Shown here: positions 2,475 to 27,942 of the stretch, one piece after another
How positions within the stretch are numbered: position 1 is the stretch's first letter
Layout: each line of letters starts with the position of its first letter
Source: Anaerolineae bacterium
Lineage (GTDB): Bacteria > Chloroflexota > Anaerolineae > Aggregatilineales > Phototrophicaceae
Reading direction: 5' to 3'
Assembly (NCBI GenBank): GCA_013360465.1
Contig: JABWBO010000002.1
Location: 62,001-126,000 of the forward strand
DNA length: 64,000 nt
The notes under the pieces: generated by a model
What the model was told of the DNA's origin: nothing
Seen by the model: only the letters and a program-made list of their open reading frames with translations
Database searches by the model: none
Program-made: the position numbers and the translations under genes

Positions 2475-5207
2475 ATGACAGCTTTACCTAAGCACTTTTC
2501 TGCATGGTTCTTGGCGCTGCTGGGGTTGACAGTGCTGATACTGGTCAGCGGATGCAATCTGAGCGGATCGCCAGAACAGCAGGATATAATCCAGACAGAG
2601 ACCCCGGCACTCACGCTACTGCCATCACGCACGCCTGTGTCTACAAGCGGCTTACCTGCAACGGCGCAGTTCCCAACGCTCCTGCCGACATCAGGAGCAG
2701 CAACAGCGATTGTCGTATTCCCGACATCGCCGCCAACTGCCATCCTGCCGCCAACTGCCGTTTTCCCCCTCAATATCGCGATTCTGTCACCAGCACCAGG
2801 CAATATTGTTGCTGGCAATGTGCAGGTACTCGGATCTTCCAGTCATCCACAGTTTTTGCAGTATCAGCTGGAGTTTGGTCCAGATCCCAATCCAGGCAAC
2901 CTGTGGTATCCGGTCAATGCGCCGCTCTTCTCACCCGTTCTGAACGGTTTGCTGGGTGTCTGGAACACCATTGGCGTGCAGGACTCGCGCTATCAGCTCC
3001 GCCTGCGCGTGTATCTGCGTGATGGGCGCGTCGAACAGACTGTTGTGAGCAACATCACCGTCCAGAATCGCATCAGCACGCCGGTTCCGTCGCCTACTCA
3101 GGCGATCCCACGTCCAATTGCCGCGTTCACACAGGACGTCACCGGTGGGCAAGTTCCATTGACGGTGAGATTCGTCAATCAATCGACCGGCAGTATCAAC
3201 AGTATCGCTTGGAGCTTTGGGGATGGAACAACCAGTTCTGAAGCCAACCCGGTTCATGTTTTTGGTAGCCCTGGATTGTATACGGTCACGCTGACGGTGA
3301 ATGGTCCTGGCGGGTCCTCGAATGTGTCTCGCCAGATCAGCGTAAACAGCCCCAGCGCGCCAGTCGCAGGTTTCACTCAGGACCGCGTTGGTGGCGTTGC
3401 ACCGCTGACGGTCCAATTTATCGATCAGTCGAGCGGCGCTATCACCAGTTATGCCTGGAACTTCAGTGATGGGCAGATCAGCGCCGAGCGCAACCCGATA
3501 CATGTCTTCACAACTCCAGGAACGTACAATGTCATCCTGACAGTAACTGGACCGGGCGGATCATCCAGTGTGGTACGTCAGATTAGCGTAAGCAGCGCCA
3601 TCCCGCCGACCGCCACATTTACGGTGACTGCAACAGCGCAGCCCACACAGGCAAACACGAACACATTCACGCCGACATTTACCGGCGTACCCGTGACGGC
3701 AACGCCGACGCAGACTTTGACCATGGTTCCGCCAACCGACGCGCCAACGGCTACCTCTACCCCAGTGCCGACGGCTACCTCTACTGAAACGCCGATACCG
3801 CCGCCAACACTGGTTGCAGGATTTACCTTCTCTGGTGATGTCAGCAATGGGCTGGGTATCCAGTTCTTCGATCAGACTGTTGGTGGTGTCCCACCCTACT
3901 CATTCGTCTGGGATTTCGGCGATGGGCAGATATCAAACGAACAGCATCCCTATCATCTGTATGCATTTCCGGGCACATACCTCGCTCGATTGATGGTCCT
4001 GGACTCTTCAGGCATCGCCGACGATGCAAATGCGGATGTCTTCGTGATCGGACCGCCGACGGCTACCTTCACGGAAACAGCAGCGCCGCCCACGGCAACC
4101 GAGACGCCGATTCCCACGCCGACAAGCACAGAGACGCCGATCCCGCCGGAACTTCTCGCCGGCTTCGCTGCCACGCCTGATGCACTTGATCTGCTCACCG
4201 TACAGTTCACCGATCAAACTTCGGGTGGAATCCCGCCATATGTCTACACGTGGGATTTTGGTGACGGGCAGATCTCGAATGAACAGAACCCATTGCATGT
4301 CTATGCAAGTTCTGGCACATACCAGGTCCGTCTGCTGGCACTGGATTCTTCCGGTTTGGCGGATGACTTCACCATTGATGTCGTTGTAATGGGTCCGCCG
4401 CCAACCGCAGCATCGCTTCCAGGTACCGCCGATCTCGCTCCGGTCTTCCCCGACCTCAGCGATCCGCGAATCGGTCAGTTATTCCAAGCAGGTGCGGCTG
4501 CCGGCAACTTGCCCTACACATTTGCCCATATCGGCGGCTTGCCACTGGCTCAGACGGAGGTCATTCGGGCGTTCGCTCCAGGCAAATCCTATAACTTGGC
4601 ATCTCAAGGCGATCTCCAGGCGGTCATCGACTGGTTTAACCAGATGCTCGGCGATGGCACGACCAGCTTCTCGCGGTCAAGCGTTGCTTCTACATTTGAC
4701 TGGACTGTGATCGATTTGCTCGACCCCAGCCGTGCTAACCCAAGTGCATGCGCACCGGGCGAAACACCTCTGGACTGTGAGCTTAGGATGACTCAACCCG
4801 TTCTTGTTTTCGTCAGTGTCGGATTCAACGATGCGCTGCGCGGAATGGATCTGGGGACCTTCGAAGCTCAGCTGCGACAGGTTGTTGCTACGGTGGCGGG
4901 GCGCGGCGTCGTCCCAGTACTCCTGTCACTTCCACGTTCAAACGTCGTCGATGTAACCGTCGCTCAAGGCTTCAATGAAGCCATCTTCCGAGTGGCTCAG
5001 GAGTCGGGCGCGCCAGTCCTGAATGTCTGGCGGCTTTTGTCTGAGGTTCCAGGCTTTGGCAGTAATGGCGAAATGCTTTCAGTCTCACCTTCTGGTGAGG
5101 GCGATCTCGATCCATCTGCGACAGGAAACTTTGGAGTCAATGCGCTGAACAATGCTTTGCTGCGCTTCTTGTCCGAGTTTCGAGCCATAGTCCTGACCGG
5201 ACTATGA
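2475..5207 (+). CDS. PKD-repeat lipoprotein with degenerate SGNH-hydrolase-like domain
   Basis: Exported lipoprotein of 910 residues. The signal peptide ends in lipobox LVSGC (Cys27). A Thr/Pro-rich linker and a ~100-residue beta-rich segment come next, then four PKD domains in two pairs, each with a WxFGDG- or WNFSDG-type core. They are separated by T/P-rich, low-complexity linkers typical of Chloroflexota surface proteins. The last ~250 residues resemble an SGNH/GDSL hydrolase: GFND fits the block-III GxND motif. However, the expected GDS is GGL (687-689) and the DxxH region reads NGEML (864-868), so the triad looks lost. Probably a surface adhesin or polymer-binding protein. It heads the exopolysaccharide cluster. 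Confidence 0.8.
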   Translation: MTALPKHFSAWFLALLGLTVLILVSGCNLSGSPEQQDIIQTETPALTLLPSRTPVSTSGLPATAQFPTLLPTSGAATAIVVFPTSPPTAILPPTAVFPLNIAILSPAPGNIVAGNVQVLGSSSHPQFLQYQLEFGPDPNPGNLWYPVNAPLFSPVLNGLLGVWNTIGVQDSRYQLRLRVYLRDGRVEQTVVSNITVQNRISTPVPSPTQAIPRPIAAFTQDVTGGQVPLTVRFVNQSTGSINSIAWSFGDGTTSSEANPVHVFGSPGLYTVTLTVNGPGGSSNVSRQISVNSPSAPVAGFTQDRVGGVAPLTVQFIDQSSGAITSYAWNFSDGQISAERNPIHVFTTPGTYNVILTVTGPGGSSSVVRQISVSSAIPPTATFTVTATAQPTQANTNTFTPTFTGVPVTATPTQTLTMVPPTDAPTATSTPVPTATSTETPIPPPTLVAGFTFSGDVSNGLGIQFFDQTVGGVPPYSFVWDFGDGQISNEQHPYHLYAFPGTYLARLMVLDSSGIADDANADVFVIGPPTATFTETAAPPTATETPIPTPTSTETPIPPELLAGFAATPDALDLLTVQFTDQTSGGIPPYVYTWDFGDGQISNEQNPLHVYASSGTYQVRLLALDSSGLADDFTIDVVVMGPPPTAASLPGTADLAPVFPDLSDPRIGQLFQAGAAAGNLPYTFAHIGGLPLAQTEVIRAFAPGKSYNLASQGDLQAVIDWFNQMLGDGTTSFSRSSVASTFDWTVIDLLDPSRANPSACAPGETPLDCELRMTQPVLVFVSVGFNDALRGMDLGTFEAQLRQVVATVAGRGVVPVLLSLPRSNVVDVTVAQGFNEAIFRVAQESGAPVLNVWRLLSEVPGFGSNGEMLSVSPSGEGDLDPSATGNFGVNALNNALLRFLSEFRAIVLTGL
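3740..3795 (+). repeat. short tandem repeat in Thr/Pro linker
   Basis: The linker between PKD pairs contains near-identical direct copies of a segment encoding PTATST (gacggctacctctac and its neighbour). It is low-complexity coding sequence inside the lipoprotein, not a mobile repeat. Confidence 0.5.
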
Positions 5208-5224
5208 GCCGTTCGATGAAGTTC

Positions 5225-5260
5225 ACCCACCGGGCAGACGGATTCGTCTGCCCGGTGGGT
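5225..5260. repeat. perfect 16-bp inverted repeat (hairpin) between two lipoprotein genes
   Basis: The arms 5225-5240 and 5245-5260 are exact reverse complements (core CCGGGCAGACG / CGTCTGCCCGG) around a GATT loop. It follows the stop at 5207 and precedes the preferred next start at 5279. No T-run follows, so it is not a classical terminator; it may protect the 3' end of the upstream mRNA, attenuate, or be a REP-like element. Confidence 0.75.
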
Positions 5261-5278
5261 AGTGCGAGTCCGAAACCC

Positions 5279-6865
5279 ATGAATCGACGTACGGTGTCCA
5301 CCTTCGTTATATGTTTGTTGCTCCTGGCGCTTGCGGCTTGCACGCCCCCTGAAGACAGCACAACCTTGATTGTCTCTCTGGTGGTCGATGGACGTGAGCG
5401 AACCTATCCACAATCGGTTTCACTTACCGTCGGCGAATTTCTCTCGCAGACCGATATTGAGCTAGGCGCTCTGGATGAAGTGACGCCTCCGCTGTTTTCG
5501 CAAATTGTCGATGGTATGCGCATCACAGTGGTCCGTGTCCAGCAAATCGAAGAATGCAGTCAGAATGAGATTCCCTACGCAGAACGACGAATTCTCAATG
5601 AAGGGCTACAGCCCGGTGAAGAGCGCGTGGCACAGCCTGGACAGAACGGTATCGAGGAACTGTGCAATCGAATCACAATTCGTGATGGTCAGCGCATGGA
5701 GGCTGCGCCTATCCGCTCAACTGTGATCCGCGCAGCACAGGATGCCGTGATCTATATAGGACCAACGGGTCAGCTCGATCCGGTGCAAATTGAAGGAACA
5801 CTCTATTATCTTAGTAACAAGAATCTCTGGATGATGCGCGGAAGCAGCGTCAACAAGCGCCCACTGACTACGACAGGAGATATTGAGGGGCGAGTCCTCA
5901 GCATCGCTTCTGACGGTCAGCGTATTCTATTCACTCGAGAGACGGATGAAGCGGAGTTAGCCACGTCATTCAACCGACTGTGGATGCTCGCAAACACAGA
6001 TGCGCGGTCAGAACCCGTTATGCTGCGCCCGGAAAATATACTCTATGCAGACTGGGTCCCGGGTCAGGAAAATATGATCAGCTACTCGACGGGCGAGATC
6101 ACCGAGAACGCGCCGGGTTGGCAAGCGTACAACGACCTGTGGATCGCGCGGCTCGATTCAATCTCAGGCGAGTTGCTCAATGCCCGTGAGTTCGTACCGC
6201 GCTCTACTGGCTGGCTTTACAGCTGGTGGGGGACAGTTTTCACATGGTCGCCCCTTGGCGATCAGCTTGCCTGGGTTCGCGCGGACTCGATGGGCTTGAT
6301 CGATCTGGCAAACGGTCAGTTTGAGACTTTGCTCACCTATCCAGTCTTCAGCACACGACAGCCATGGTCGTGGCGTGCTGATGTGTCATGGTCTGGTGAC
6401 AGCAGTCTGGTCCTGACGACAGTACATGGGCAACCGATTGGTAGTGAGCCTGCCGAGACGAGTCCGGTTTTCCATGTTGCGGCGGCAGCATCTGATGGCA
6501 GCTTTGCTGCCGATGTGGTTCGTAATGCTGGGATTTGGTCAAAACCCCGGTATTCGCCAGTGCAGGCAGATGGAAATATGAGCATTGCTTATCTTCGTGC
6601 GCGCGATATTGCCAACAGCATAAGCGCATCGGCAGAGTATGATCTTGTCGTTGCGGACAGTGACGGCAGCAATGCCCGTGTCATCTATCCACCACCCGAT
6701 CAACCAGGGCTAACTGCTGATAAACCGTTTTTTGCATGGAGTCCCACAGGCAGGCAGATCGCCCTCATTTATGGCGGTAATCTCTGGGTAGTCGATGTTC
6801 AGTCGGGTATTGCTCATGCCCTTACCCTTGACCGCGCAGCTTCCAACCCAATCTGGACACAATGA
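5279..6865 (+). CDS. lipoprotein with DUF348/G5-like N-terminus and WD40/TolB-type beta-propeller
   Basis: Exported lipoprotein of 528 residues from the ATG at 5279, which gives a clean signal peptide with lipobox ALAAC (Cys21). The reading frame stays open upstream to 5204, but that part only translates the hairpin at 5225-5260. After the Cys comes a ubiquitin-like DUF348 segment (VVDGRERTYP...) and then a G5-like segment rich in E, R and G, an arrangement known from RpfB and YabE proteins. The rest looks like a beta-propeller with recurring LAWVRAD, YADWVPG and SPTGRQIALIY blades, as in TolB. The gene overlaps the next one by ATGA. Probably a cell-surface binding or assembly factor for the polysaccharide made by its neighbours. 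Confidence 0.75.
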   Translation: MNRRTVSTFVICLLLLALAACTPPEDSTTLIVSLVVDGRERTYPQSVSLTVGEFLSQTDIELGALDEVTPPLFSQIVDGMRITVVRVQQIEECSQNEIPYAERRILNEGLQPGEERVAQPGQNGIEELCNRITIRDGQRMEAAPIRSTVIRAAQDAVIYIGPTGQLDPVQIEGTLYYLSNKNLWMMRGSSVNKRPLTTTGDIEGRVLSIASDGQRILFTRETDEAELATSFNRLWMLANTDARSEPVMLRPENILYADWVPGQENMISYSTGEITENAPGWQAYNDLWIARLDSISGELLNAREFVPRSTGWLYSWWGTVFTWSPLGDQLAWVRADSMGLIDLANGQFETLLTYPVFSTRQPWSWRADVSWSGDSSLVLTTVHGQPIGSEPAETSPVFHVAAAASDGSFAADVVRNAGIWSKPRYSPVQADGNMSIAYLRARDIANSISASAEYDLVVADSDGSNARVIYPPPDQPGLTADKPFFAWSPTGRQIALIYGGNLWVVDVQSGIAHALTLDRAASNPIWTQ

Positions 6866-9800
6866 AACGCGCCGGCGCAATTGCCCTCGCGTCGCTTTTT
6901 GTCCTCCTTGGCGGGCTGACCACGTTCGGATCGACGATCCGAGTTCGCAGCGAGATGCTGCGCGGGGTTGTCGATGCAACGCGCTCTGGACCCCTTCCCC
7001 TCCGTATGCCACGTCTGGGGGTGAACGCAGATCTCACGATATACGGACGGGATCTGTTGTTACAGCAAATCGGACAAATGCAGGCGATGCATGTACGCTG
7101 GATCCGCCAGTTTTTCCGATGGGATGTCGTTGCCCGTGAAGACGGCGGGCTGGATTGGTCGGCATACGATACTCTCATTGAGACTCTCGACACTTTTCAT
7201 GATATTGAACTGATCGCTGTCCTTTTCGGCGCGCCTTCGTGGGAAGGCGATCCACGCGCGACCAGTACAGCGACAGCCCCACCCGCCTCTCCGGAAGCGT
7301 TTTCGGTGTTTGCCGGTGAATTTGCTGCACGTTACGGCGACGTTATCGATGTTTATCAAATCTGGGATGAGCCAAATTTGGGCGCGGCATGGGGAGGACT
7401 GTCGCCACAACCGGCAGATTACCTTGCTCTTCTGGACGCCGCCTATCGGAGTATACACTCAGCCGATCCCGACGCAGCGGTCGTTGCCGCTGCGCTCGCG
7501 CCAACGACCGAGCAGACCGAGGATAATTTAAGCGATTGGGCTTATCTCGAGGCGCTATACCACCTTGGAGGAGCATCATCATTCGACGCTGCCGCCGGAA
7601 AACCTTACGGTTTTTCGTATGCGCCCGAAGATCGCGTGGTCCATCAGGATCGCCTGAATTTTTCGCGGGTTATCGGACTTCGCGAAATCATGGAAGCTCA
7701 CGGAGATGCGGGTAAGCCGTTATGGCTCAGCAATTTCGGATGGAATACGCTCCCGCAAAGTTGGCAGGGCGACCCATCCATCTGGGGACAAGTGACTGCC
7801 GAGCAGCAGATCGACTACACAGTCCAAGCAATTCAGCGTATCGACCAGGAGTGGGCATGGGCAGGTGGCGCAATCCTTCAGCTTTGGGAACCAGACGCAC
7901 CATGCGACGATCCCGAATGGGGTTTTGCGCTGAAGGAGTGCGGTGATACATCCAAACAAACCTCGCTTTATCATGCGTTAGCGGAGCGTAGTCAGTCAGA
8001 TATAGCGGCAAAACCGGGCCTCCACTCACCTCTGACGCCCTATACGGTCTATCGCGGAGTATGGACTTTCAGCCCTCTGGGTGCGGATATCGGGTGGATA
8101 CATGATTCTCGTCTCACCTTCACCTTCGAGGGCAGAGATATCGCTCTTTTACTGCGCGAAGATGACTATGTTGCCTTTCTCCATGCGTGGATTGATGGCA
8201 TGCCAGCCAACGCGCTCCCGCGAGACTCGGAAGGGCGCGCCTTTGTCAACCTGACCAGTTCCACCCGATCTCCTGAGACAAATCTGGTGCTGTTGGCGAC
8301 CAATCTTTCGGATGGTCCACATTCTCTGGAAATCGTTGCTGACGGAGGTTGGGATCGTTGGGCGCTCGCTGGCTTCGCGGTTGGTGCAGGCGACCAGGGT
8401 GCGCCCTATGATCAGCAGATCGGTGTGGCATTGCTGACCACGCTGATTGGTGCCCTGGGGTTCACCCTCGGCATTGCTCAACTGGGCTTCTCGAAGATAA
8501 CACATTGCTTTTCACACAGGATTCCCGCGCTCCAGACCACCCAACGTACGTTGATCAGCTTTATCTCGTCGTTGGGGGTGACAATTGGTATGCTGCTGAC
8601 ATTTGGCGACGGCGTACCCAGCATCTTGCGTAGAGAACCGGCACAAATAACCTTGGCAATCCTGACCGCAGGAATAGTGTATCTTCAACCGCACGTGATC
8701 CTGCTGGCTGTGAGTTTATTGCTTCTCTCCATTCTGCTCTATCAGCAGCCTCAGGTGGGGCTTCTCCTGACTCTGTTCTACGCCCCGCTATTCTTATTTC
8801 CGGTGGAGCTGTATCAGTTTGCCTTCCCAATGTCAGAGCTGGTGATCCTTCTCACGACAACTTTGACTGCGCTCCGAGTGTTCGTGCAGTGGTCGAAGGC
8901 GCGGCGATCACCATCAATGGCAGGGACATCTAAAGTCAGGCTCAATGCTCTGGATGCGGCGCTTGTTGTCTGGCTCGCTCTTGCGTTGATTTCGGTATCT
9001 TGGGCTGCCTACCCTACTCGTGCGATGACCGATCTGCGTGTGATATTCGTGGAACCACTTTTGTTCTATGCTCTCTTTCGCGTCTATGGCAGAGAGAGAC
9101 GGTTCTTGCAGGTCGCTGCAATAGTACTCGTGACGGCAGGCATCGTCGTCGCAGGTATAGGATTGTTCCTCTACGTTGGAGGGCAGGCTGTTATCACTGC
9201 TGAGGGCGGCGTCCAGCGCATGGCGAGCGTGTATGGATCGCCCAACAATGCAGCCTTATTCCTGGGGCGATGTATACCATTTGCGCTAAGTTTCGCGCTG
9301 ATAACCGATCGACGACGGAATCGGTTGGCTGCCGGGTTTGCGCTTGCACTGATGCTTGCTGCGCTGATTCTCACACAGAGTGCTGGTGCGCTTCTACTTG
9401 GACTCCCTGCATCGACCATTCTGGTCATTCTGCTGATGATGGGGCGTCGGGGGTGGTTGGTCATCGGGGGGATTGGCATGTTGGGCGTCACGGCGTTCTC
9501 CGTGGCTTTGAATTCAGCGCGATTTCAGCGCCTCCTCGACTTCACGCAAGGGACCAACTTCTTCCGCCTACGTGTGTGGGAAAGTGCCGTGAACATGATC
9601 ACGGATCATCCAATAACCGGGCTGGGGCTTGACCAGTTCCTCTATGCCTATCGAAATCGGTATCTCCAGCCTGATGCTTGGCAGGAACCGAACCTATCTC
9701 ACCCCCACAACTTTCTGCTGGATATCTGGCTGCGCCTGGGTATCGCTGGACCGTTGGTCTTCCTGGTGTTGCAGGCGGTTTACTGGCGCAGCGCGGTACG

Positions 9801-10002
9801 GCTGATTCAAGCCCTGCGGAGAACTGACGGGATGTCCTATGCCCTCGTTGTTGGTGCGGCGGGATGTATGGTTGGTTTGTTGGCACATGGTATAGTCGAC
9901 AATAGTATTTTCGTCAACGACCTGTCGTACGTATTCGTACTTCTGGTTGGGATGATTTCGAACTTACGCGCTGTGAATGCCTCATCTGTACCGGAAGCGT
10001 AA
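6862..10002 (+). CDS. fusion: glycoside-hydrolase-like domain + O-antigen ligase/polymerase (Wzy/WaaL-like)
   Basis: Protein of 1046 residues in two parts. Residues ~40-370, after a signal-anchor-like N-terminus, resemble a clan-A glycosidase barrel (GH39/GH5 style), with YQIWDEPN carrying the acid/base Glu170. The expected nucleophile motif TEFGW reads SNFGW, with Asn at 291. A beta-rich linker leads to residues ~520-1035, which hold about a dozen membrane helices and the O-antigen-ligase signature ITDHPITGLGLDQF...SHPHNFLLDIWLRLG. The likely role is polymerising or transferring surface glycan, with the N-terminal part outside the membrane as a binding module. The start overlaps the previous stop (ATGA), so translation is probably coupled. 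Confidence 0.8.
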   Translation: MKRAGAIALASLFVLLGGLTTFGSTIRVRSEMLRGVVDATRSGPLPLRMPRLGVNADLTIYGRDLLLQQIGQMQAMHVRWIRQFFRWDVVAREDGGLDWSAYDTLIETLDTFHDIELIAVLFGAPSWEGDPRATSTATAPPASPEAFSVFAGEFAARYGDVIDVYQIWDEPNLGAAWGGLSPQPADYLALLDAAYRSIHSADPDAAVVAAALAPTTEQTEDNLSDWAYLEALYHLGGASSFDAAAGKPYGFSYAPEDRVVHQDRLNFSRVIGLREIMEAHGDAGKPLWLSNFGWNTLPQSWQGDPSIWGQVTAEQQIDYTVQAIQRIDQEWAWAGGAILQLWEPDAPCDDPEWGFALKECGDTSKQTSLYHALAERSQSDIAAKPGLHSPLTPYTVYRGVWTFSPLGADIGWIHDSRLTFTFEGRDIALLLREDDYVAFLHAWIDGMPANALPRDSEGRAFVNLTSSTRSPETNLVLLATNLSDGPHSLEIVADGGWDRWALAGFAVGAGDQGAPYDQQIGVALLTTLIGALGFTLGIAQLGFSKITHCFSHRIPALQTTQRTLISFISSLGVTIGMLLTFGDGVPSILRREPAQITLAILTAGIVYLQPHVILLAVSLLLLSILLYQQPQVGLLLTLFYAPLFLFPVELYQFAFPMSELVILLTTTLTALRVFVQWSKARRSPSMAGTSKVRLNALDAALVVWLALALISVSWAAYPTRAMTDLRVIFVEPLLFYALFRVYGRERRFLQVAAIVLVTAGIVVAGIGLFLYVGGQAVITAEGGVQRMASVYGSPNNAALFLGRCIPFALSFALITDRRRNRLAAGFALALMLAALILTQSAGALLLGLPASTILVILLMMGRRGWLVIGGIGMLGVTAFSVALNSARFQRLLDFTQGTNFFRLRVWESAVNMITDHPITGLGLDQFLYAYRNRYLQPDAWQEPNLSHPHNFLLDIWLRLGIAGPLVFLVLQAVYWRSAVRLIQALRRTDGMSYALVVGAAGCMVGLLAHGIVDNSIFVNDLSYVFVLLVGMISNLRAVNASSVPEA

Positions 10003-10096: not shown

Positions 10097-11041
10097 GTGC
10101 GTGTCTTGATCACTGGTGGAGCGGGCTTCATTGGCTCCCACCTTACCGACCGATTCCTGAGAGAAAACCACTGCGTCATTGGCGTCGATAACCTGATCAC
10201 TGGCAATACTCGTAACATTGCCCATCTGGTGGGTCACGAGAAATATACTTTTGTACGACAGGATGTGACGCACTATCTTTACTTCGACAAGCAGATTGAC
10301 GCGGTCCTGCATTTTGCCTCACCAGCAAGCCCCGTCGATTACCTCAAATACCCAATACAGACACTCAAGGTGGGAGCGCTTGGGACTCATAACGCCCTGG
10401 GGCTGGCGATGGCGAAAGGCGCGCGCTTTCTTCTCGCCTCAACATCCGAAGTCTATGGTGATCCTCTCCAGCACCCTCAGCGCGAAGACTATGCCGGCAA
10501 TGTAGACCCCATTGGTCCGCGTGGGGTCTACGATGAAGCCAAACGTTACGCTGAAGCGTTGACGATGGCATATCATCGGCAGCATGGTCTCGATACGCGT
10601 ATCGTTCGCATTTTCAACACCTACGGTCCTCGTATGCGTCTTGATGATGGACGTGTCGTACCGAATCTCATCGGGCAGGCGCTGCGCGGAGAACCGCTTA
10701 CCGTATACGGTGATGGCAGGCAAACGCGGAGCTTCCAGTACATCAGCGATCTGGTTGAAGGCGTATATCGCCTGCTGATGAGCGACTTCAGCGAACCGGT
10801 CAATATTGGCACTACGGAAGAGATGTCCATCCTGGATTTTGCGCAGCATGTCTCCGTGCTAACCGGAAGCGGCGCAGGAATCGTGCTGAAGGCGGATGAT
10901 CGCGTTGTGGGCGATCCACAGACCCGACGTCCAGATATTTCGCGTGCGAAGGCAGTACTGAATTGGTCGCCACAGGTTACACTGAGCGAGGGTCTGCCGC
11001 CTACAGTAGAGTACTTCCGTCAAATTCTCACATCGAGTTGA
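10097..11041 (+). CDS. NAD-dependent epimerase/dehydratase, UDP-glucuronate decarboxylase-like
   Basis: Extended short-chain dehydrogenase of 314 residues that makes an activated sugar for the polysaccharide cluster. Gly-rich GGAGFIGS (7-14) binds NAD. The catalytic YxxxK is Tyr145/Lys149, with Ser117-Glu118 in TSEVYGDP. The substrate-loop motifs NTYGPRM and GDGRQTRSF are those of UDP-glucuronate decarboxylase (UDP-xylose synthase). A related dTDP-glucose dehydratase or epimerase activity cannot be excluded. It starts at GTG 10097 after a strong AGGAGG site. The stop TGA overlaps the ATG of the next gene by one base. Confidence 0.85.
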
Positions 11042-12498
11042 TGATGGCGCAGCGGAGAGCGATCTGGGTCTTCCTCGCCCTTGGCGCTGGCGTCGCTCTC
11101 TCGTATGCAGAACTACCTGCTTTGCTGATAGTCGTGACTCTGGCGGTTATCACCGTGGGCTGCTTGACAACGCCGTTAGTTCCATTTGCGGTGATGTTGT
11201 TGATTTCCCCGCTTCGCGCATTAATCTTGACGGAGTCACCGGACGCCCTGCCCTTCGATGTTGGACAAATGCTCTTCGTGTCGTTCGTGATCTCCTGGTT
11301 CCTGCATCTTCTCATCCACAAGCGGAGCTTGAGAGGGGTATTGCGCCGATCACCGGTCCTGGCAGCGGTCGGACTATTCCTTATCGGTGCTGGTGGCAGT
11401 GCATTCGCCGCGATTTCGCTGCATGCCTGGATGACCGAATGGCTCAAATGGTTTCAGATCGCTGGTATCACAATCATTGTGGTCGATATCGTAAGAACCG
11501 AAAGTGCGGCTTGGCTGGCATTTGCGGTCGTCGCAGCGGCGCTGGCGAATGCTGGGGTTGGCATTTACGAGTACTTTGGGGGCAGCGGCGCCCTACATCT
11601 TCTCATTAACGAGCAGAACTTTCGTGCCTTCGGGACATTCGGGCAGCCCAATCCCTTTGGTGGATTCATGGGCATGGCGGCGCCGATAGCGATTGCGATG
11701 ACCGGTTTCTCCGCGTATCGGCTCTGGCAGCGGCGTGCCTTTCATGACGAACTGGTGTGGCGCACGGCAGCAGTTGCATTTTATTGTCTGGCAGCGGCGA
11801 CGATTACCTTCGCGTTATTTGCTTCCTGGAGTCGGGGCGCATGGCTGGCATTTGCTGTCTCTCTGAGTGTGGCAGCTATTGCCCTCCCCCACCGCCTGAC
11901 ACGTGCGGGTATCATGCTTGTGTTGGGGCTGACAGTCTTGGGTTTCATCTCCGCTGGGGGATTCCTACCGACTTCCATCATGGCGCGTATCAGCAGCGTC
12001 ACAAACGAGTTTTCCGCCGCAAGTGATGTTCGTGGCGTTGACGTTACACCGGAGAATTACGCCAACCTTGAGCGGTTAGCACACTGGCAAGCCGCGGTAA
12101 GTATGGCGACAGTAAACCCTTGGCTGGGCATCGGGTTTGGTAACTACGAGATCGCTTACTTGGACTATTCTCTGCTTTTCTGGGACATGCCGCTGGGGCA
12201 CGCACACAATTACTACTTGAATGTTCTGGGAGAGACTGGCATGATCGGCGCAATAACATATGTTATTATGTTTTGCACGGTTGCGATCTGCGCCTGGCGG
12301 TTACGCCGGCATCCAGATTCTGCGTTTCGACTGATTGGAATTGGGACGTTGTGTTCTTGGGTGTACTTAGCGGTTCACAGCCTGACCGATAATCTCTATG
12401 TCAACGCTCTTTTTCTCCATATCGGTACTATCATTGCGCTAGTTGCAGTACTCTACGATGATCTGTTTGCACGACGAAAATGGCTGAGGAACGCATGA
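11041..12498 (+). CDS. O-antigen ligase family membrane protein
   Basis: Polytopic membrane protein of 485 residues with about 12 hydrophobic helices. A large extracytoplasmic loop and the signature NPWLGIGFGNYEIAYLDYSL...GHAHNYYLNVLGETG match Wzy/WaaL-type ligases that join glycan units to a lipid carrier or acceptor. The ATG at 11041 shares a base with the previous stop. An in-frame GTG at 10963 would overlap that gene by 79 bases and adds no membrane segment, so it is rejected. This is the second ligase-like protein of the cluster and lacks the glycosidase-like domain of the first. Polymerase versus ligase cannot be separated from sequence. Confidence 0.85.
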   Translation: MMAQRRAIWVFLALGAGVALSYAELPALLIVVTLAVITVGCLTTPLVPFAVMLLISPLRALILTESPDALPFDVGQMLFVSFVISWFLHLLIHKRSLRGVLRRSPVLAAVGLFLIGAGGSAFAAISLHAWMTEWLKWFQIAGITIIVVDIVRTESAAWLAFAVVAAALANAGVGIYEYFGGSGALHLLINEQNFRAFGTFGQPNPFGGFMGMAAPIAIAMTGFSAYRLWQRRAFHDELVWRTAAVAFYCLAAATITFALFASWSRGAWLAFAVSLSVAAIALPHRLTRAGIMLVLGLTVLGFISAGGFLPTSIMARISSVTNEFSAASDVRGVDVTPENYANLERLAHWQAAVSMATVNPWLGIGFGNYEIAYLDYSLLFWDMPLGHAHNYYLNVLGETGMIGAITYVIMFCTVAICAWRLRRHPDSAFRLIGIGTLCSWVYLAVHSLTDNLYVNALFLHIGTIIALVAVLYDDLFARRKWLRNA

Positions 12499-13091
12499 GT
12501 CAGACCACTGGCACCGTCAAAACCCAGGCGGTTTCTATTCGCGATACCATCGACGCTCCCATTGCGGCGTTATCTAGCCGCATCGGCGGCAGCAAATCCA
12601 AAGAAGTTGAGCGCTTCATCAAGTTCGCCATCGTAGGCTCTATCGGCGCAGTCATCGATGCCGGTACGCTGTTCATCCTTCAAGCAACTGTCCTTCCGCC
12701 AACACTCCGTGACCCCGACATGAATGTTGCGGTCGCCCAGACTGTCGCCTTTGTCGCAGCCATTCTGAGCAACTTTACCTGGAATCGCCTCTGGACCTAT
12801 CCGGACTCACGCTCTCGTTCGGTGCGACATCAAATGGCGCTGTTTGTGCTGATCAGCGTGATCGGATGGGTTGGACGCACTATATGGATCACATTTGCGC
12901 ATCAGCCCCTTGGCGAATATTTGATGCCCGCTGTGCTGCCGCTGATACATCTGCTGCGCCCCGGCTATGTTGCTTCGGCAACGGCTGCTGCGAAGCTGGG
13001 CACGATGACTGCATGGCTGGTCGGTGTTGCAGTTGTGATGGTCTGGAACTTTATTGCCAATCGTCTGTGGACATACAACGACATTGAATAG
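12495..13091 (+). CDS. GtrA-family membrane protein
   Basis: Small polytopic protein of 198 residues with four membrane helices. The family motifs FIKFAIVGSIGAVID in helix 1 and two NRLWTY repeats (after helices 2 and 4) mark the GtrA/DPMS family, whose members are thought to move lipid-linked sugars across the membrane or anchor glycosyltransferases. The ATG at 12495 overlaps the preceding stop as ATGA. An in-frame ATG at 12480 is less likely. The stop TAG shares its last base with the GTG of the next gene, so these genes are tightly coupled. Confidence 0.85.
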   Translation: MSQTTGTVKTQAVSIRDTIDAPIAALSSRIGGSKSKEVERFIKFAIVGSIGAVIDAGTLFILQATVLPPTLRDPDMNVAVAQTVAFVAAILSNFTWNRLWTYPDSRSRSVRHQMALFVLISVIGWVGRTIWITFAHQPLGEYLMPAVLPLIHLLRPGYVASATAAAKLGTMTAWLVGVAVVMVWNFIANRLWTYNDIE

Positions 13092-14236
13092 TGTCTGAGG
13101 CACAAGCACCCATTGCCGTTGGCATCGACTATACGCCTGCCCATGAGCAGGGCGGTGGTATTGGGCGCTATGTTCGTGAGTTGACGGCGGCGCTGGCAGA
13201 ATCGCCAGAGGAGTTCAGGTTCAGCTTGTTCGCCGCTGGTGCCGTTGGCTGCGCTTCGCCATTTGCGAACCACCCGCGATTCACATGGCACCCTACCCGC
13301 CTGACACCCCAATGGTGGGCAAGAATATGGCACAGGCTGCGGCTTCCAATCCCGATAGAGGCGATTGTAGGAAACGTCAAACTTTATCATGCAACGGACT
13401 TCGTACTTCCTCCTGTTCAGGCGCGCTCGCTGCTGACCGTTCATGATCTGTCCTTTGTGCGCGTGCCGGCGACAGCCAGCCCACCGCTGAAGAGATACCT
13501 CGACCGAGTAGTTCCACGCTCTGTGCTGCGGGCTGATCATATCCTCGCAGACTCTGCTGCAACAAAAGATGACTTGATAGAACTCTACGGAACCCCGTCA
13601 TCCAAGATTACGGTGCTATACAGCGGCGTCGGAAGTCGGTTTTCGCCTACCAAAGACAGTCATATACGTCGAATGGTGCTGGAGAAGTACCACCTGCCTG
13701 ATCGCCCGTATATCCTTTCGGTGGGTACGGTTCAGCCGCGGAAGAACTATGCGCGTTTGGTCCGTGCCGTTGCCGTCCTACGCGAGCGCGGGATAGATAT
13801 CGATGTCGTCATTGCTGGCGGTCGTGGTTGGCTTGAAGATAGCATTTACCAGGCAGTAGATGAAACCATGATGACCGAGCATGTTCATTTTGCTGGCTTT
13901 GTCGATGATGTGGATCTCCCCGCACTGTATAGCGCGGCGCTTGTGACTGCACTTCCATCGCTTTATGAAGGATTTGGAATCCCTATCTTGGAATCAATGG
14001 CTTGTGGTGTTCCGGTGATCACATCAAATGTCTCGTCGTTACCCGAAGTCGGCGGTGATGCCGCTGTGACCATTTCCCCTACCGATTTGGATTCCATCAT
14101 TGATGGGCTGCAACGAGTGCTTGAGGATCAGTCGCTGCGTGACCAGATGATAGCACGCGGTTTTTCCAGAGCTGCTCAATTCTCCTGGCGATCTGCCGCG
14201 GCGCATCTTCGGCAGGTATATCGGAGTCTTCTCTAG
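13091..14236 (+). CDS. GT4-family glycosyltransferase
   Basis: Retaining GT-B glycosyltransferase of 381 residues, the last gene of the polysaccharide cluster. The N-terminal half holds the acceptor-side Gly-rich loop (EQGGGIGRYVREL). The C-terminal half has ILSVGTVQPRKNY and the nucleotide-sugar EX7E motif in LYEGFGIPILESMACGVPV, followed by SSLPEVGGDAA. These are classic GT4 (mannosyl/glucosyltransferase-like) features. There is no membrane segment, so it is probably cytoplasmic or peripheral. It starts at GTG 13091, overlapping the gtrA-like stop. The donor and acceptor sugars cannot be inferred. Confidence 0.88.
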   Translation: MSEAQAPIAVGIDYTPAHEQGGGIGRYVRELTAALAESPEEFRFSLFAAGAVGCASPFANHPRFTWHPTRLTPQWWARIWHRLRLPIPIEAIVGNVKLYHATDFVLPPVQARSLLTVHDLSFVRVPATASPPLKRYLDRVVPRSVLRADHILADSAATKDDLIELYGTPSSKITVLYSGVGSRFSPTKDSHIRRMVLEKYHLPDRPYILSVGTVQPRKNYARLVRAVAVLRERGIDIDVVIAGGRGWLEDSIYQAVDETMMTEHVHFAGFVDDVDLPALYSAALVTALPSLYEGFGIPILESMACGVPVITSNVSSLPEVGGDAAVTISPTDLDSIIDGLQRVLEDQSLRDQMIARGFSRAAQFSWRSAAAHLRQVYRSLL

Positions 14237-26846: not shown

Positions 26847-26896
26847 GACAAGAAGACAGCGCCGGTTCTGGGTGGAACCGGCGCTGTCTTCTTGTC
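26847..26896. terminator. bidirectional terminator hairpin (22-bp perfect stem)
   Basis: Arms 26847-26868 and 26875-26896 are exact reverse complements with a six-base loop. It separates the response regulator from the convergent adenosine-deaminase-like gene and touches that gene's stop codon. T-rich sequence follows on the plus strand (TCTATTT). It can end transcripts from both sides. Confidence 0.85.
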
Positions 26897-27942
26897 TATT
26901 TCCCCTCAGGAGTGAGGTGTTCCACAACGAGCGTTTCGATTTCATCCAGGAATGCCTGCCGAAGGCTTTCCTTTTCCTCAATAGGCAGCGCAGAATGGGT
27001 GATCGCCGTCAACGCCATATCTGTGATCTCTTCAGAACTGAGAGTGTCCGCCTCTGCCGCCAGAATGTACTCCTGGTTGAGACTCGTCTGATAGAGCGTT
27101 GATTGATCGGAACTGACAGTGAGTTTGACGCCGCGATCCAACAACTTTCGGATGGGCAGCCTTGCCGAATTCTCGATCCACTTCTGTTTGATTAGACGCG
27201 ATGGGCTGAATGAGACCAATACGGACTGCTGCACGACCTGCGCCATGACATCATCGTCTTCCCAAAGTTCCCGCGCATCGAGTATGCGCGAAGGATTCAG
27301 ACTCGCCAGCGTATCAGAAATCCCAGCGCGTCCGGTGAGTTCTCCAACGCGAACCACCCGAACAAGCTCCCGCTTTTCCGCAGATCGAAAGGGCTTCTCG
27401 AACTGCGCGGGAGAATGCAGATCGTCCCGCCCGATGAGTCCGACGCCAATCACACCGGCGCGCTGGGCAGGAATCGACGATCCCCAGCGCACAGTGTCTT
27501 CTACACGGCGGGGTTCATCACGAAAGGTGTTCAGTATCCACTGCATCCGAATGCCCCACGCTCGCTCTGCTCTCTGACGCCCATCGTTGATGGCAGCAAA
27601 GAAGCCTTCGAAATCCAGGTTGCAGTCTGGATAGTACGCCGGACATACTCCGACCTCCGCATATCGCACACGCTGCTTGTGAAGCTTGGTAGCCAGATCA
27701 TAGGCTAAGCGGGAAAGATCATCCCCGTCACGAACCCACGAATTCGCCACTCGCAGAATATCGTACAAACGGGCATAGTCCGGTTTTCGTATCAAGCCTA
27801 CCCAATCATTGTAGTGCTTGAGCGTTTCAGGTATCTCGTATTGTTCGGAGATGAAAAGCAGGCGGCTGATCTCGAAACTTCCCTCGAGCTGGACGTTCAG
27901 CTCAATTTTCGGCATCGCCTCAATGAATGATCTCAGTGACAT
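26896..27942 (-). CDS. adenosine-deaminase-like protein lacking the zinc-ligand histidines
   Basis: Protein of 348 residues with adenosine/AMP deaminase organisation: PKIELNVQLEGS at the N-terminus, VRVGE near 197-201 and TVSSDQSTLYQTSLNQEY near 275-291. In active enzymes these read PKAELHxHLDG, VHAGE and TLNSDDPxxF. The zinc-binding HxH is Asn16/Gln18, the third His is Arg198, RIGHG is RILDA and the second Asp of SDD is Gln280. Only Glu201 and Asp279 remain. It probably cannot bind zinc in the usual way, so it is a pseudoenzyme, a binder, or has a different chemistry. It lies 21 bases downstream of pyrG in the same direction. Confidence 0.75.
   Translation of the reverse strand: MSLRSFIEAMPKIELNVQLEGSFEISRLLFISEQYEIPETLKHYNDWVGLIRKPDYARLYDILRVANSWVRDGDDLSRLAYDLATKLHKQRVRYAEVGVCPAYYPDCNLDFEGFFAAINDGRQRAERAWGIRMQWILNTFRDEPRRVEDTVRWGSSIPAQRAGVIGVGLIGRDDLHSPAQFEKPFRSAEKRELVRVVRVGELTGRAGISDTLASLNPSRILDARELWEDDDVMAQVVQQSVLVSFSPSRLIKQKWIENSARLPIRKLLDRGVKLTVSSDQSTLYQTSLNQEYILAAEADTLSSEEITDMALTAITHSALPIEEKESLRQAFLDEIETLVVEHLTPEGK

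Follow-up and report, generated by a model that had tools for sequence, protein, structure and literature searches.

A nucleophile-less PslG-like barrel fused to a Wzy_C ligase domain in Anaerolineae, a putative glycan-holding pseudoenzyme

A single open frame at 6862-10002, on the forward strand of a 64,000-nucleotide stretch of Anaerolineae bacterium DNA (GenBank assembly GCA_013360465.1, contig JABWBO010000002.1, positions 62,001 to 126,000; hereafter the window, to which all coordinates refer), encodes a protein of 1046 amino acids in which a membrane anchor is followed by a GH39/PslG-like glycosidase barrel, a beta-sandwich and a polytopic ligase/polymerase domain. The barrel keeps the acid/base Glu of its relatives and has lost both the nucleophile Glu and the Asn that precedes the acid/base. 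What would a polymer ligase do with a disarmed glycosidase? We propose that the barrel descends from a PslG-like hydrolase, once active and coupled to the ligase, and has probably turned into a pseudoenzyme whose role is to hold or position glycan. An original prediction, made by a model from the sequence alone, had suggested that an inactive barrel tethered to the ligase could hold the growing polymer; its frame and residue numbers (W168-D169-E170-P171-N172 and S290-N291-F292-G293-W294) were exact, and its holding barrel, with inactivity and binding both putative, is the reading best supported by our comparisons.

Barrel, ligase and catalytic positions

Residues 48-395 (7003-8046) form a GH39-type (beta/alpha)8 barrel homologous to PslG, the GH39 endoglycosidase of the Psl exopolysaccharide pathway and its nearest solved relative. 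A phmmer search of solved structures returned PslG as the top match (E 4.7e-15) with GH39 xylosidases next, and a profile of 23 relatives matched PslG at E 2.7e-32; a Pfam scan of the barrel named no glycosidase family. AlphaFold2 models, built from five sequences only, had a mean pLDDT (predicted local distance difference test) of 65.8 and a pTM (predicted template modelling score) of 0.54 for barrel plus sandwich, and 67.8 and 0.75 for the barrel alone. PslG was the best fold match of both (PDB 5bx9, 4zn2 and 9g17 are all PslG structures): the larger model matched it at a Foldseek E of 1.9e-17 and a VIA Z of 20.7, with a root-mean-square deviation (rmsd) of 3.5 over 225 residues, and the barrel-only model at a VIA Z of 19.2 and an rmsd of 4.8 with 270 residues aligned, the best non-PslG row scoring Z 15.9.

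In clan GH-A enzymes the acid/base follows strand 4 and the nucleophile strand 7. In the models the last residue of strand 4 is 167 and that of strand 7 is 289-290, and E170 and N291, coming after them, therefore occupy the acid/base and nucleophile places of the clan. The models are weak at the second motif, with pLDDT below 50 at 290-312 (barrel plus sandwich) or 292-311 (barrel alone), so the residue-level assignment rests on alignments. These agree: phmmer, the 23-sequence profile, MAFFT and hmmalign all pair E170 with PslG E165 and residue 291 with PslG E276, and a single constant numbering offset to PslG fits both. D169 falls on PslG N164, an exchange of the Asn directly before the acid/base for Asp that the original prediction had overlooked. 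By alignment, then, the acid/base Glu is present (D169-E170, 7366-7371), the nucleophile Glu is gone (N291, 7732-7734) and so is the Asn before the acid/base. The prediction had named the kept Glu170 and the loss at Asn291, and the alignment with GH39 that it proposed as a check confirmed both; the structure prediction it also proposed fits in the placement of strands 4 and 7, but is too weak around 290-312 to prove the point at residue level.

What these positions do in PslG is described in the part of a structural study drawn on here, where Glu276 was seen covalently linked to an inhibitor with Glu165 close by and Asn164 touching the reacted sugar (PMC11912335). The two proteins thus share an acid/base Glu in register, besides the best match in sequence and fold, but PslG is a separate protein with its own nucleophile and Asn164, whereas the window protein has D169 and N291 and is fused to a ligase.

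The C-terminal half of the protein is a complete Wzy_C/WaaL-like ligase-polymerase domain by sequence, as had been predicted, and its function is predicted from that likeness. The polytopic region spans residues 519-1046 (8416-9999), as delimited by Pfam, hydropathy and a profile search, and its Pfam Wzy_C core lies at residues 826-968 (9337-9765; E 7.2e-22, 78.2 bits against a cut-off of 31.7) with R902 and the motif H947-P-H949-N. Wzy_C/WaaL enzymes use an Arg and a His, both conserved on the outer loop, for catalysis, and R902 and H949 are invariant in 112/112 fused relatives. Against solved structures, with E up to 1, the ligase profile had a sole match, the putative polysaccharide polymerase/ligase 7tpg (E 5.9e-8), whose Arg and His-x-His-Asn motifs align with those of the window protein. 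The window protein differs from WaaL-type ligases (PF04932) in carrying an additional 500-residue outer domain, and it may ligate or polymerise. A hydrophobic anchor predicted by hydropathy at residues 4-22 (6871-6927) would put the barrel on the outer side of the membrane, and a beta-sandwich at residues 396-515 (8047-8406), defined by Pfam and the model, with a faint CE2_N likeness under the Pfam cut-off, lies between barrel and ligase.

Catalytic residues within and outside the class

The fusion had been called unusual, which the survey contradicts for Anaerolineae, where it is common. A search of the family Phototrophicaceae gave matches in 61/61 genomes, unfused barrels counted too; the fusion is full or nearly full length in 47 of the 61 and present as pieces or in degenerate form in five (G004, G011, G025, G029, G038), and none was found among the matches listed for nine. 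The class search gave matches in 277/298 genomes, a tally that likewise includes unfused barrels, and besides the window protein we read 112 distinct fused relatives, each of which fills 120 or more of the 143 columns of Wzy_C. L001, L009, L010 and L012 had been dropped because they duplicate the window or another locus, and L093 because it is broken into three frames; L090, in which BLAST joined only the barrel, was added by hand, Pfam having found its Wzy_C. From the window's genus, L029 encodes a fused protein identical to that of L009, from the metagenome-assembled genome Chloroflexi bacterium OLB15. Tallies for the class use 115 fusions, namely the window protein, 111 of the 112 relatives and three further loci (L154-L156); L098 is excluded from these, from the profile and from the tree, and included in the 112.

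Residue 291 is strikingly mixed. Among the 112 relatives it is H in 22, A in 22, N in 21, E in 21, S in nine, Q in eight and others in nine; in the class set of 115 the counts are E 23, N 22, H 22, A 22, S 10, Q 8 and others 8. Positions 170 and 169 are steadier: residue 170 is E in 100 of the 112 (N 9, Q 2, gap 1) and residue 169 is D in 94 (H 15, N 2, gap 1), and the class set has Glu170 in 102/115 and Asp169 in 98/115. Glu170 and Glu291 are kept together in 19 class fusions, and the complete set of Asn169, Glu170 and Glu291 (Asn-Glu/Glu) occurs in one, L124 from the window's genus, which groups in the tree with Asp-Glu/Glu rows and may have retained or regained it. In L098, of the same family, the WDEPN motif is gone from the fused barrel while the beta-sandwich and ligase are still there.

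Barrels outside the class look different, and the pairing of barrel and ligase there, mostly with an intact catalytic set, is a second point the original prediction overlooked. In the phylum Chloroflexota, with an E cut-off of 1e-40, 78 of 251 genomes had matches; 11 of these 78 genomes, the window's included, belong to the class. From that listing we hand-picked 40 regions, mostly best matches first and not at random, 37 of them outside the class. Barrel and ligase are adjoining genes in the same order at 11 of these outside loci (L125-L132, L143, L149, L150) and fused at 16; eight stretches hold a ligase but no barrel (L151-L153, L160-L164), and the other two (L158, L159) a barrel but no ligase. 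The full Asn-Glu/Glu set was found in 35/42 outside barrels (12/16 fused and 23/26 stand-alone, those of L158 and L159 included), and Glu291 in 39/42; the Fisher p of 2.9e-17 for class against outside is descriptive only, as the rows are related. An extra, separate barrel gene lies near 13 of the 16 outside fusions, nearly always directly upstream, and at least one Asn-Glu/Glu barrel is present at all 13 (L133-L142, L144, L147, L157). At L137, L138 and L139, the first and last from the same genus, one of two barrels lacks Glu291 and its partner is Asn-Glu/Glu, in either direction; a division of labour between them is possible. The systems of other classes (L125-L150, L157) thus share both domains and their order with the window protein, but mostly keep the catalytic set and are often two separate genes.

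Unfused barrels of the window's own family offer a closer control. All 20 that we read, hand-picked high-scoring matches from 19 genomes (three of which, G003, G037 and G058, showed no fusion), are Asn-Glu/Glu, and so are five of the six unfused paralogs read among 11 barrel matches listed for the window's genome. Because unfused same-family barrels keep the set, it is the fused copy with which the loss is associated in the class.

The fused barrel is also under constraint. In 117 fusions without Asn169, from the class and outside it, entropy is 2.82 bits at residue 291 but 0.12 at W288, and G293 and W294 both have 0; within the segment 283-300, positions 299 (2.94) and 284 (3.41) are as variable as 291 but lie outside the motif. 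These groups were chosen by the state of 169, which makes the line "169 lost" circular, and the selection and class/outside comparisons were regrouped by taxonomy. Between outside and class the barrel residues lost most sharply are Arg120 (39/42 to 1/115) and Glu291 (39/42 to 23/115); Ala317 and Arg367 are lost less completely, and Glu176 (34/42 to 0/115) falls slightly under the threshold of the comparison. W168, N172, W177, W288, W294 and W308, beside the catalytic motifs, are near-invariant in fusions. Among seventeen close pairs that share sequences, the ratio of nonsynonymous to synonymous substitution rates (dN/dS) was estimable for the barrel in 16: it was 0.09-0.24 in nucleophile-less pairs (13 of 14 estimable) and 0.11-0.19 in the three pairs keeping Glu291, with 0.12-0.18 for the ligase part. 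Since the barrel's values resemble those of the ligase, we take the barrel to be maintained and not decaying. The fold is kept, a catalytic residue is lost and the gene is under purifying selection, which is the pattern of a pseudoenzyme; alignment of relatives and dN/dS led us to reject artefact and frameshift.

A tree of 164 barrels with the trait columns removed places the fused class barrels nearly on one side (2 changes). It requires at least 15 steps for Glu/not-Glu at 291, 12 at 169 and 5 at 170, counts that hold for any root but do not distinguish loss from regain, and some Glu291 in the family may have been regained. Rooting on PslG was rejected, as its end branch of 4.46 makes the root meaningless. 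With Asp-Glu/Glu rows near the outgroup side (L079, L133, L144, L145), the simplest reading is that Asn169 would have changed to Asp before Glu291 was lost.

The gene neighbourhood

Genes of polysaccharide synthesis surround the fusion, all on the forward strand. Upstream, a protein with G5/DUF348 and beta-propeller domains (5204-6865, from open frames and Pfam) overlaps the start of the fusion by 4 bases. Downstream, Pfam names an NAD-dependent sugar-nucleotide epimerase/dehydratase (10097-11041), a GtrA-like membrane protein (12480-13091) and a family-4-type glycosyltransferase (13091-14236); between the first two lies a second, stand-alone Wzy_C ligase/polymerase (10963-12498, a mechanical start, so that the true start may be further in). 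The presence of two Wzy_C proteins in one cluster suggests one polymerase and one ligase. Downstream of the fusion at L009, Pfam named the epimerase, second ligase and GtrA, with a frame of similar size in the place of the glycosyltransferase; L011 has the epimerase, named by Pfam, a frame matching the ligase part and then frames of similar size, and at L012 the downstream genes differ from those of the window. Just upstream of the cluster, at 2475-5207 (+), is a protein of several PKD domains, whose linkers are rich in Thr and Pro and which ends in a GDSL-type hydrolase domain. In one scan of viral contigs no relatives were confirmed.

Another arrangement was seen elsewhere in the window's genome (contig C148, L166:8481-12181), where L003, a paralog of the active type, shares a 4-base overlap with a gene for a PMT_2 membrane glycosyltransferase. 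PMT_2-type enzymes use lipid-linked sugar, and here a barrel of the PslG kind is again coupled to an enzyme of the membrane. Elsewhere in the window, at 26896-27942 (-), lies an adenosine-deaminase-family protein (PF00962, E 4.4e-46) that reads ELNVQLEGS against ELHLHLEGT in 3ou8 and VRVGEL against AHAGEE, with the His absent at the next site; these would be its metal and catalytic motifs, which look lost, and the protein is possibly another pseudoenzyme in the window.

A glycan-holding barrel and its alternatives

How might such a protein have arisen and worked? The ancestor would have been an active PslG-like hydrolase encoded beside, or fused to, a ligase. In the fused copy of the class, the change of Asn169 to Asp would have been followed, probably later and repeatedly, by loss of Glu291, while the fold stayed, along with many residues of the cleft and, in most cases, the acid/base Glu. 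Seated outside the membrane and presumably no longer a retaining glycosidase, the barrel would grip the growing or lipid-linked glycan near the ligase site; alternatively, it might set chain length or release for the ligase. We favour an inactive holder because the loss follows the fused copy and the barrel is under purifying selection, and the polysaccharide gene neighbourhood counts for it as well.

A precedent of sorts is heparanase 2, an animal pseudoenzyme of family GH79, in which we take Glu262 to be the acid/base kept and Gly381 the nucleophile lost. According to the part of the study used here, the protein with this vestigial pair has no catalytic activity and binds its glycan, with an affinity for heparin/heparan sulfate higher than that of heparanase 1 (PMC12406646). 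By analogy, the window barrel would bind without cutting, although heparanase 2 is not ligase-fused, likely stems from gene duplication and, in its model, has a partly lidded cleft.

Several observations weigh against a holder. The precedent itself is imperfect, as the same portion of that work has the modelled lid of heparanase 2 clashing with substrate in the cleft (PMC12406646). Glu170 and Asp169 are conserved more than a pure binder may need, and the 19 class fusions with both Glu170 and Glu291 might still be active. Six PslG contacts to the -2 to -5 sugars were compared and only Asp83 has a counterpart in the window protein, D88 (Asp in 44/112 fused relatives); any glycan held there would therefore be unlike Psl. 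Loss of the nucleophile is not unique to fusions, since it also occurs in L005, an unfused paralog in the window's genome, and in three of the 42 outside barrels, two of them unfused. Finally, independent pairs linking loss at 169 to loss at 291 were not significant, being too few (about two agree and none disagree of six).

What if the barrel binds no glycan at all and, as a dead scaffold, docks a protein partner such as the G5/propeller protein or an active paralog? The G5/propeller gene lies upstream at all four loci examined (the window, L009, L011, L012), overlapping the fusion by 4 bases in the window, L009 and L012; unfused active-type barrels exist in genomes of the family, and heparanase 2 has been proposed to contact heparanase 1. 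The near-invariant Trp and Asn residues beside the catalytic motifs, however, suggest a maintained cleft and not a surface alone, and we consider a scaffold unlikely, if the strongest of the alternatives. Retooled catalysis strikes us as almost as credible as a scaffold, and likewise improbable. GH20-type hexosaminidases employ a substrate-assisted mechanism with an Asp-Glu pair, and Asp169-Glu170 could similarly cut or transfer N-acetylated sugars with no nucleophile from the enzyme. When the 92 class members without Glu291 were scanned for columns acidic in 80% or more of them, all such columns but 169 proved to be acidic in half or more of the 42 barrels from outside as well, and the Asp-Glu pair is found in 76 of the 92 (74/90 plus the window protein and L154). 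Yet 18 class members carry Asp-Glu together with Glu291, other lineages have His-Asn, Asn-Asn, His-Glu or Asp-Gln, and the motif is gone from L098, so no single mechanism fits the family. That the barrel was converted and not killed, into a transfer or substrate-assisted enzyme acting in cis with the ligase to cut or re-join polymer during synthesis, seems to us slightly less likely again.

The same survey of acidic columns bears on whether the barrel might still be a working glycosidase in which another residue replaces Glu291, the case that the original prediction had named as its refutation. A clear substitute nucleophile is not supported, if not fully excluded: no column emerged as a family-wide substitute, although the window protein does have a Glu at 343. 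That residue is E or D in 14 of the 92 class members without Glu291 and in none of the 23 with it; it is Gln in 81/115, however, and comes not after strand 7 but after what is presumably strand 8, a strand left unresolved in the models. As 78 of the 92 lack an acid at 343 as well, E343 cannot serve the whole family, and we regard a working glycosidase of this kind as very improbable. Decay without function, with the barrel a passenger being lost, might be read from L098; given that dN/dS in the barrel is like that in the ligase part and that fold and cleft residues are conserved over the class, it is the reading to which we give least credence. A glycan-holding pseudoenzyme thus appears to us the probable fate of the fused barrel.

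Among the titles listed from the open-licence literature searched, none describes the barrel-ligase fusion. Why clusters for polysaccharide synthesis carry glycosidases at all is an open question, of which PslG is a debated case: as far as the cited part of one study goes, PslG is associated with the inner membrane in polysaccharide biosynthesis, a setting like that of the window protein, and Psl production was not restored by a mutant changed at both active-site residues, though the authors also cite a group that found neither PslG nor its activity to be required (PMC6813494). In Chloroflexota the same barrel-ligase pairing occurs with its catalytic set mostly intact in other classes and, as a single chain, mostly without its nucleophile in one class. 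Because the pairing exists in both states, catalytic and non-catalytic roles of such a barrel become directly comparable.

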